From NCBI GenBank assembly GCA_937922655.1, contig CALAJH010000077.1:1-44819 (forward strand): a stretch of 44,819 bases of DNA, read 5' to 3'. Under the pieces are notes generated by a model. That model was not told the DNA's origin. It worked only from the letters and a program-made list of their open reading frames with translations, and searched no databases. This document shows, in pieces, positions 19,006-44,819 of the stretch; within the stretch, counting starts at the first letter, position 1; every line of letters starts with the position of its first letter. The DNA is from an uncultured Bacteroidia bacterium (GTDB lineage Bacteria; Bacteroidota; Bacteroidia; J057; CALAJH01). The position numbers were made by a program, and so were the translations under genes.

Positions 19006-19832
19006 TCGTTTTCGGTTTCGTGGGCGATAAGCTCAAAGCCCGAAAAAGCGTCGTTGAGCATGGGAGCGTCGGCGGTCAAAAAACCGGAGACGACCAAAAC
19101 GGCGCCGGGCCTAAGTAAGGCGAAATATACGTCTTTTTCGGCAATCAAGACGTTGCGCGTGATATTGGCGAGGAGAACGTCAAAAGTTTGCGGCAAATAG
19201 ACGGCGGCCGTACCCTCGCGAACGTTGTGGGCTCCGCTATCCAAACCGTTGGTTTTTAGGTTGGACAGCGTGTCTTCGACGGCGACGGGGTCGATGTCGG
19301 CAAAGGAGACGTCGGCGCCCGCCAACGCCGCCGCAAGTCCCAATACGCCCGTGCCGCAACCCGCGTCCAAGACTTTTTTGCCGGTTAATTGGCCCATGTC
19401 GTCCAAGCGTTTCAAGGCGCGAAGGCAAAGCCGGGTCGTTTCGTGTCGACCCGTACCGAACGCCATGCGCGGGTCTATTTCCAAAGTATAACGAAACGAC
19501 CCGGCGTTTTCTTGTGCTTGCGCGCGACGATGCGTCGGATAAAGCAAAATATAATCGTCCACGGCGGTAGGGCCGTACCCGGCCTCCCACGTCGCGTTCC
19601 AGTTTTCCCACGGCGCGGTTTCACAGACGTATTCGGGTAAGTCGAATCCAAAAAGCGACAGATACTCCCGTGCTTGGTCCAGAGAGTCGTGTTCTTGGCC
19701 TTCGGGGACGTAGGCGATCAGCGACGTTTCCGTTTCCTCAAAAGCTTCGAAGGACTCCAATCCCTCCGCCAAGAGCGCACGCAAGGTTTCGTCGTCGGTT
19801 TCAAATGTATACTTTTTGTACGCTTTCACCAT
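18972..19832 (-). CDS. prmA: Ribosomal protein L11 methyltransferase
   Basis: PrmA trimethylates L11 using S-adenosylmethionine. The N-terminal substrate-recognition part includes CETAPWENWNATWEAGYGPTAV. Next come FRYTLEIDPRMAFGTGRHETTRLCLRAL, the SAM motif VLDAGCGTGVLGLAAALAGA, and the NITRNVL catalytic-site motif. The start at 19832 (MVKAYKKYTF) is chosen over an in-frame start at 19961. The longer version would add a basic-hydrophobic head that spans a terminator and a promoter. The resulting 286 aa match the family. It overlaps the start of the large exported gene downstream. Confidence 0.93.
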   Translation of the reverse strand: MVKAYKKYTFETDDETLRALLAEGLESFEAFEETETSLIAYVPEGQEHDSLDQAREYLSLFGFDLPEYVCETAPWENWNATWEAGYGPTAVDDYILLYPTHRRAQAQENAGSFRYTLEIDPRMAFGTGRHETTRLCLRALKRLDDMGQLTGKKVLDAGCGTGVLGLAAALAGADVSFADIDPVAVEDTLSNLKTNGLDSGAHNVREGTAAVYLPQTFDVLLANITRNVLIAEKDVYFALLRPGAVLVVSGFLTADAPMLNDAFSGFELIAHETENEWSCLTFQKLS

Positions 19833-21622: not shown

Positions 21623-21871
21623 ACGATAAGTCCGTGAATTTGATTCTCTACAAAAATATTTTGTTTACTACGACACAATGACTTGGTAATCAAGACGTTT
21701 TTTGTCTAGGGAAAATAATTTTAAGGACGAAATGTTTTCATCCGGACGTGCTTGCAGGCTTCGAACTCAACGACGTCGGGCTTCAATGTGTCAAGCGAGA
21801 CTTATTCATCGGGTTTTTGCCCGATTCGGTGTCGATAAGTTAAATTAATATCGAAAGATTAGTAATCTTTT
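21623..21871. other. Intergenic region with hairpin-like sequences
   Basis: No gene. Notable are a small hairpin ATCGGG / CCCGAT (21808-21813 with 21820-21825) and the near-palindrome AAAGATTAGTAATCTTT (21854-21870), which sits directly before the IS1-like remnant's terminal sequence at 21872. Confidence 0.4.
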
Positions 21872-22105
21872 GGTAGTGTATGACAGTTAAAGACGAAAAA
21901 AATATCCACAGGTCTAAAAGCACGAGGTTTGTATTATGAATATAAATACCACGACATTCCCGCCCCGGCAAGCCGCAATATCGTATAGTTATTCCCAAAG
22001 ACTTGCATCGCCCTCAATTCCAAAGAGGCCGGACCCAACCGGTCGAGCGTTTCAACGGCACGTTGTGTTCCAAAGTTTCGCGTTCGGTTGGAAGTGGATA
22101 AATTT
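21872..22105 (+). mobile_element. Decayed IS1-like element remnant
   Basis: The left end starts GGTAGTGTATGAC and shares about 110 bases of recognisable similarity with a second copy at 44150-44260 (minus). Both contain TCCACAGG, CTAAAAGCA, an ATG about 62 bases in, and AAGCCGCAATATCGT. In the other copy this region encodes a zinc-ribbon start (CPACGSRNIVKN) like IS1 InsA; here the Cys codons have mutated. Further right, codons 22036-22089 read QPVERFNGTLCSKVSRSV. That resembles the C-terminal IERFN-TLR..SRLVRK region of IS1-family transposases. The middle is missing. Family assignment is inference; the shared terminal sequence is directly seen. Confidence 0.55.
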
Positions 22106-43843: not shown

Positions 43844-43993
43844 TAAGCCTTTACCCGACCTTGATACTTCATAACGACGACAATGTCGATTGTACAATAA
43901 GGAGTTGGCGTCCGCTTGGGTCGCAAGCGTGGAAAAATTATGGGAAGTGTAAACAGGTAATGATGAAAAAAATATCCACAGGACTAAAAACAC

Positions 43994-44127
43994 GGTAGCG
44001 TACCATGGATAATGATGAAAATCCGTGCGGATAAAAGACGTTAATCATTTATCCCTGATACGAAGGAAACACTTTAAAGGCGCCAACGAATAATCTCCAT
44101 CGTTATCGTTATCTGTTGTACGCTACC
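43994..44127. mobile_element. Inner MITE-like element with perfect 10-bp ends
   Basis: 134 bases flanked by GGTAGCGTAC and its exact complement GTACGCTACC. Imperfect similarity continues inward (GATAATGATG against GATAACGATA on the opposite strand). It sits between AAAAACAC and AAAAGCAT, which look like 8-bp duplicated target sites with two differences. These flanks come from the same CTAAAA(A/G)CA(C/T) sequence found in the other copies, consistent with insertion into an older copy. Confidence 0.55.
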
Positions 44128-44199
44128 AAAAGCATGGTTTTGTGTTTCGTTTTTTACGATATTGCGGCTTCCACAGGCCGGACATGTGCCGGTATTCAT
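44074..44199 (-). pseudogene. IS1-like InsA zinc-ribbon fragment
   Basis: A 41-codon frame starting at the ATG about 61 bases inside the outer right end. The first residues, MNTGTCPACGSRNIVKN, match the N-terminal zinc ribbon of IS1-type InsA proteins (CPxCGS-x-IVKNG). After about 20 codons the frame crosses into the inner element at 44127 and ends at a stop in unrelated sequence. Truncated and not functional. Confidence 0.55.
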
Positions 44200-44401
44200 A
44201 ATGCAAATGTCATGCTTTTAGGCCTGTGGATTTTTTCGTCATTACTTGTGGCATACTACCAAATACCACGATTTTGTCGTTTTATTTGTAGGGAGCAGGC
44301 CATATTTTGAGAAGCGCACAACGGATGCAAAATCAGTGTCGGTTAGGGAAATGTATTCATCTACCCTTAACGGAAAAAAGATGATTTGAAATCCCCCGCT
44401 A

Positions 44402-44426
44402 TCATCATTATCTGTTTAGCGCTATC
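44402..44426 (-). repeat. Additional solitary terminal repeat copy
   Basis: Minus strand GATAGCGCTAAACAG followed by ATAATGATGA resembles the ends of the nested elements. I see no matching partner end nearby, so it may be the end of a decayed copy. Confidence 0.45.
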
Positions 44427-44480
44427 GTTCACACCTTCTTTTTTCGGGCAAACGGCCGTTTTGTAGGCGTCGCCCTTTGC

Positions 44481-44819
44481 TTAATCGGTCGGGTTTTTGT
44501 CCAAAGCGATGGCGGCCACCTTCGCAACGTCGAGTTCCGTAAGGTCGGCCACCTCTTCGACGCTCATGCCGCGCTCCAAAAGTTTGGCCGCCAATTTCAA
44601 GCTTTTACCCAATTCGCCCTTGGAGAAACCCGTTTTCTCACCCTCCGAAAAGCCTTTTTTCTCACCCTCCGAAAAGCCTTCCGAAAAGCCTTTTTTTTCG
44701 CCCTCCGAAAAGCCTTTTTTTTCGCCCTCCGAAAAGCCTTTTTTTTCGCCCTCCGAAAAGCCTTTTTTTTCGCCCTCCGAAAAGCCCTTCTTTTCGCCCT
44801 CCGAAAAGCCTTTTTTTTC
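44481..44819 (-). CDS. Rpn/PD-(D/E)XK nuclease family protein, C-terminal part (cut by window edge)
   Basis: Partial at the right edge; only the last 112 codons before the TAA at 44481 are here. The sequence is a run of octapeptides EKKGFSEG, then a degenerate unit (EKTGFSKG). The helical tail then reads SLKLAAKLLERGMSVEEVADLTELDVAKVAAIALDKN. This ending, with its LL-x-x-G-M/L-S-x-E-x-V-A helix, is the C-terminal layout of Rpn-type PD-(D/E)XK putative transposases, which are linked with recombination. The catalytic N-terminal domain lies outside the window, so the call rests on the tail only. Confidence 0.65.
   Translation of the reverse strand, partial: EKKGFSEGEKKGFSEGEKKGFSEGEKKGFSEGEKKGFSEGEKKGFSEGFSEGEKKGFSEGEKTGFSKGELGKSLKLAAKLLERGMSVEEVADLTELDVAKVAAIALDKNPTD
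44640..44819 (-). repeat. 24-bp in-frame tandem repeat encoding EKKGFSEG
   Basis: Seven copies of a 24-bp unit (GAAAAAAAAGGCTTTTCGGAGG plus two bases) with only single-base changes, plus one four-codon partial unit (FSEG). A more degenerate unit follows at 44616-44639. Most units hold an A8 run. The repeat continues past the window edge, so its true copy number is unknown. Confidence 0.85.

Follow-up and report, generated by a model that had tools for sequence, protein, structure and literature searches.

A probable nest of fossil IS1-family ends and IS1-type MITEs in an uncultured Bacteroidia bacterium

The stretch of DNA analysed here (the window; 44,819 nucleotides) is contig C77 of a 3.58-Mb genome in 84 contigs. 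The host belongs to a Bacteroidia-class lineage lacking a close relative in collections: the Tgt protein of the window attains a best identity of 59% against named genomes, with Bacteroidia MAGs on top, in a collection that may omit the genome itself. Towards its right end, the window contains an IS1-family left end (positions 1-51 of the element; 43943..43993, plus strand), a MITE of 134 bp termed A (43994..44127, plus strand), a second, truncated IS1-family left end including the zinc-finger coding start (positions ~143 to 1; 44128..44260, minus strand) and a third, strongly decayed MITE of family A (44309..44426, plus strand). As context outside the element, there follows an Rpn-like gene with EKKGFSEG repeats, of which the contig end leaves only the C-terminal part (44481..44819, minus strand). 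Because this gene lies on the minus strand and ends at 44481, the nest is situated 3' of its stop codon and not, as the initial annotation had it, directly before the gene.

MITE A is bounded by the inverted ends GGTAGCGTAC.../...GTACGCTACC, which are perfectly inverted over 10 bp (10/10) and agree at 19/23 positions over 23 bp, so that the inner 134-bp unit with perfect ends described initially is borne out at 43994-44127. It has no ORF of its own, and the reading frames running across it are chance frames. The end motif GGTAGCGTANNNNGGATAATGATGA (25-bp IUPAC, derived from the left end of the inner unit and allowing 3 mismatches at most) is found in the window only at the two inner ends, as compared to 0 occurrences in 100 shuffles. 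A scan of the 44.8-kb window for inverted pairs (23-bp arms, at least 19/23, spacing 60-400 bp) returned three places, two of which are the inner unit and the outer arms surrounding it. The remaining pair (19421-19514, 20/23) is unrelated to IS1 ends according to a scan with an end matrix.

Compared with its own genome, the region gave 49 DNA matches that fall into two groups, group A matching 43994-44127 and group B matching 44260-44128 on the minus strand. The ten aligned copies of group A have the consensus GGTAGTGTACAACGG.TAATGATGAAAAATCCGTACGGATAAAAGACGTTAATCATTTATCC...GTTTAACGCTACC. A model of family A finds at least 75 places in the genome at E<=1 and at least about 37 at E<=0.001; the counts are lower bounds since 150 of ~2,900 candidates were scored. 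The ten best matches cover almost the whole model, giving at least 10 good copies, and the further copies anticipated elsewhere in the genome are thus amply present. They are old, with identities of about 71-92%. Short, bounded at terminal inverted repeats, dispersed and without a transposase gene, the units have the properties of a MITE. Two copies (C1:70066-70235 and C28:25922-26068) carry a partial tandem duplication of the right end. The family-A model had 0 matches in 21 other genomes of the order, and the exact 21-base core of the MITE had no match in the named genome collection, which may omit the genome itself. A 26-bp match in genome G019 (E 7e-4) was judged to be chance and not spread to other species.

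A reading of the units as conserved structured RNAs or terminators, kept near genes for their function, could draw on the window and C24 copies, both of which fold well below their shuffles (z -4.7 and -5.0). The remaining copies, however, have z from -2.4 to +1.1, the consensus of ten copies retains a terminal stem of only 7 pairs (-0.37 kcal/mol), and Rfam gave no match above threshold. Moreover, the ends agree with those of a transposon, and the family is missing from all 21 other genomes of the order. On the evidence of folding and alignment this reading was rejected and is hardly credible. A sub-threshold Rfam match to RAGATH-25 at 44429-44465 (minus strand; 19.6 bits against a cut-off of 49) is probably chance.

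Group B identifies the parent of the ends. Its matches represent the left end of an element of ~740 bp, and the ~133-bp minus-strand left end at 44128-44260 has counterparts in relics on contigs C57, C58, C43, C30 and C11. Decayed full-length relics are located at C43:10251-~11000, C11:40994, C30:184630 and C57:2348, and their ends (GGTAGYGTAC...) are common to MITE A. The relic transposase matches NF033558 (IS1 family transposase) in single-frame pieces covering positions 1-38 (E 1.9e-6), 85-136 (E 2.4e-7) and 154-196 (E 1.6e-5), none of which attains by itself the 100 bits set as cut-off for the full-length model; NF050000 (IS1/IS1595 zinc domain) is above its cut-off. Zinc-ribbon and DDE transposase pieces, together with terminal inverted repeats starting in GGT and 8-bp duplications, place the element in the IS1 family. 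NF033558 has 14 matches in the genome and PF03400 has 0. PF03811 has one above cut-off (C58:78348), which may belong to a different element. One further IS1-family relic within the window (21869-22086) joins the left end to a late transposase piece (VERFNGTL), i.e., it has an internal deletion.

The IS1 relics carry stops and frameshifts. Searches of the assembly with PF03400, PF03811, NF033558, the relic DNA and a protein fragment returned pseudogenes and fragments but no intact IS1 transposase, and the elements of the nest therefore look like fossils. Contigs C57 (at 20118) and C58 (at 86702) both end inside IS1 copies, whose terminal left halves agree completely in the final ~130 bases, judging by the search output. 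Because these contigs stop where they do, an intact IS1 copy outside the assembly is possible. The proposal that a full IS1 with the same ends mobilises the short units in trans is hence sustained as regards full-length relics with matching ends, whereas the intact element itself was not found in the assembly.

The surroundings of MITE A are best understood from the same left end. Aligned to the left-end consensus of the relics, 43943-43993 scores 72 (best of 300 shuffles, 41) and 44128-44260 scores 186 (best of 300 shuffles, 48). The outer arms (43963-43992 and 44213-44242) are 83% complementary over 30 bp, consistent with the outer 318-bp unit with inverted ends noted initially. Since both arms are opposed left ends of IS1 and there is no right end, however, the outer unit is two IS1 left ends in inverted orientation and not a plain MITE. 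The supposed solitary end at 44402-44426 gives way to the right end of the third MITE, whose score of 64 against the whole MITE consensus exceeds all 300 shuffles (best, 39); the model match extends from 44323 to 44424 (E 0.26). A paralogous copy of this third MITE at C1:68849-68964 (score 62; model match C1:68862-68962, E 0.06) likewise follows an Rpn-like gene. All ends in the nest belong to one sequence family by an end matrix trained partly on these ends, in agreement with the single family of five ends recognised at the outset. The outer unit as an insertion into the 3' flank of the Rpn-like gene was considered and rejected: the alignment with the C1 paralogue begins at 44261 and covers only sequence to the right of it, and the sequence upstream of 43943 does not align (score 26; shuffles reach 34). 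An empty site of the outer unit is therefore not recoverable from this comparison.

Traces consistent with transposition are found at the flanks of MITE A. In the window, the candidate 8-bp target duplication consists of AAAAACAC on the left (43986..43993) and AAAAGCAT on the right (44128..44135), identical at 6/8 positions. The copy at C24:113933-114065 is inserted in an IS1 relic and flanked by GACGCGTC / GACGCGCT (6/8), and the C43 relic has the unfilled target CTCGACGCGCTTATCG, i.e., the empty site for the C24 insertion. The 8-bp flanks of C5:138259 are 7/8 identical. For 13 elements, the 8-bp flanks gave 43 matches against 28.6 +/- 5.6 after re-pairing (attained by 0.8% of 2000 shuffles) and 9-bp flanks showed no clear excess (17.7%); the element boundaries were placed by hand, and the statistics are therefore supporting evidence only. 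The duplication is lost in most other MITE copies. Exact target duplications and empty sites, as sought from the initial annotation, were thus obtained in part, with one empty site in the same genome; for the window insertion itself, no empty site was found.

For the window copy, the octamers could instead be microhomology between two IS1 left ends, with MITE A having arrived by recombination and not by transposition. The IS1 left end contains AAAAGCATG at about position 44 and the reverse complement at about position 135, with the effect that both flanks would carry the octamer regardless of how A was acquired. The 8-mer of the right flank is indeed present in both IS1 arms and the match is only 6/8, which leaves room for this explanation here. 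Elsewhere, however, an 8-bp duplication is visible beside a family-A copy whose target is also seen empty (C24 compared to C43), and C5:138259 retains 7/8 identical bases in its flanks. We consider arrival by recombination rather unlikely overall, and the octamers are retained as a candidate target duplication that is imperfect and, in the window, ambiguous.

Another arrangement to be weighed is a chimera of MITE A and IS1 left end (43994-44260) that moved as one unit into an older IS1, in which case the outer unit would not be the older host. A family-A copy at C28:25922-26207 borders on an IS1 left end with the same junction, the same orientation and the IS1 cut at the same position of ~143 as in the window, and the left arm is absent; at both places the rest of the IS1 is without trace. 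Yet the window and C28 show no special likeness (72-77% between the two, 78-88% with other copies), the C28 junction carries an additional duplicated right end of 22 bp, and the flanks of 43994-44260 agree at ~5/8 (by eye), which does not improve on the 6/8 of A by itself. Joint movement is thus unlikely, even if the shared junction means that the history of the nest may have involved a chimeric unit or a repeatedly used target instead of one insertion into an already complete outer element. At C50:18600-18843, two IS1 left ends are arranged in tandem in the same orientation with a junction near IS1 position 150 (by eye), hinting at a favoured target within the left end of IS1 itself.

Based on the collective evidence, we regard the region, at a probability of about 0.88, as a nest of fossils that derive from a single IS1-family insertion sequence and from the ~134-bp family A of non-autonomous MITEs, which share its ends. 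Sequence comparison establishes the shared ends, the multiple copies, full-length relics in which the IS1-type transposase is broken, and one sister insertion whose target is also seen empty. The many copies, the relics, the 8-bp duplications and the empty site together uphold the original idea that short IS1-type derivatives inserted repeatedly into one another. MITE A would have been moved in trans by a once-intact IS1-type transposase that acted on the GGTAGYGTA... ends and produced 8-bp duplications. In the window, it would have inserted into the AT-rich site AAAAGCAT, where two inverted IS1 left-end fragments meet. The left-left arrangement of these fragments may have originated through a template switch at the 9-bp inverted repeat AAAAGCATG / CATGCTTTT of the IS1 left end, given that the repeat and its reverse complement make a fold-back junction possible exactly at the present site of A; alternatively, two insertions of opposite orientation could have been followed by a deletion. 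A third copy of family A lies ~50 bp further on, and the whole nest has since decayed, with no source of transposase detectable in the assembly.

There exist clear analogies to known systems. An ISAba3-related element of the IS1 family has 24-bp ends GGTGGTGTTTCAAAAAGTATGCTG and 8-bp duplications (PMC6382973); ends starting GGT(A/G)GTGT, a length of ~740 bp, the 8-bp duplications and transposase pieces (zinc-ribbon and DDE) matching NF033558 are shared with the element described here. All copies here are pseudogenes, in contrast, and PF03400 is silent, leaving only NF033558 to bridge the gap. Among bacterial MITEs, the 113-bp MITEAba12 is moved by ISAba12 (PMC6382973) and resembles family A in being short, non-coding and multicopy, with ends common to a resident insertion sequence and with target duplications. 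It differs in that the parent here belongs to the IS1 family and has unrelated ends, the copies are old and an intact parent is not in the assembly. Nested prokaryotic elements have been treated as 'Russian dolls' (PMC3852290); elements of one family inserted into one another occur here without essential difference, the outer host in the present case being a pair of left-left IS1 fragments. The kind of element is thus already known and the family is new, making the finding an ordinary but well supported one.

The neighbouring gene resembles Rpn weakly by sequence. Its match to TIGR01784 (30.4 bits; cut-off, 52.1) is confined to the C-terminal 48 residues and does not amount to a full-length TIGR01784 or PD-(D/E)XK domain; PF12784 gave no match, with control genomes equally silent. 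The designation as an Rpn-type gene is accordingly reduced to a resemblance below the cut-off. The gene is multicopy, on C1, C62, C69, C5 and at several contig ends (copies in the window at 44481-44819 and at C1:69022, C62:53865, C69:27766, C21:1, C74:1, C59:3, C63:3 and C81:10210), and, as a recent multicopy repeat, it causes breaks in the assembly. Identity is 71-98% in the coding parts, while beyond the stop codon most copies diverge quickly from one another, a pattern that gene conversion may explain.

Four of ~53 MITE matches (E<=0.025) lie within 400 bp of the 14 visible ends of close Rpn-like copies, compared to 0.08 expected genome-wide or 0.4-0.8 if MITEs are confined to intergenic DNA. 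The clustering is suggestive; distance and gene set were chosen post hoc, the intergenic fractions were assumed and some flanks are paralogous, and it is therefore a lead and not a finding. That IS1-type MITEs are enriched by the multicopy Rpn-like genes since the two travelled together, with pairs of MITEs carrying Rpn-like passengers, is very improbable. The gene as cargo between two MITEs was not supported because the homology between gene copies continues past the MITE ends. A published view holds that rpn genes, having no ends themselves, may hitchhike (PMC10327210); passengers borne by MITEs, if real, would provide a vehicle for such genes.

Lastly, the nest explains the greater part of the repeated intergenic DNA at this end of the contig, and it offers a clear example of nesting by insertion in which the parent can be identified. 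The possible tie between MITEs and Rpn-like genes bears, as a lead only, on the spread of the latter. For the Bacteroidia-class lineage itself, the analysis documents an IS1-family MITE system that is extinct as far as the assembly shows.
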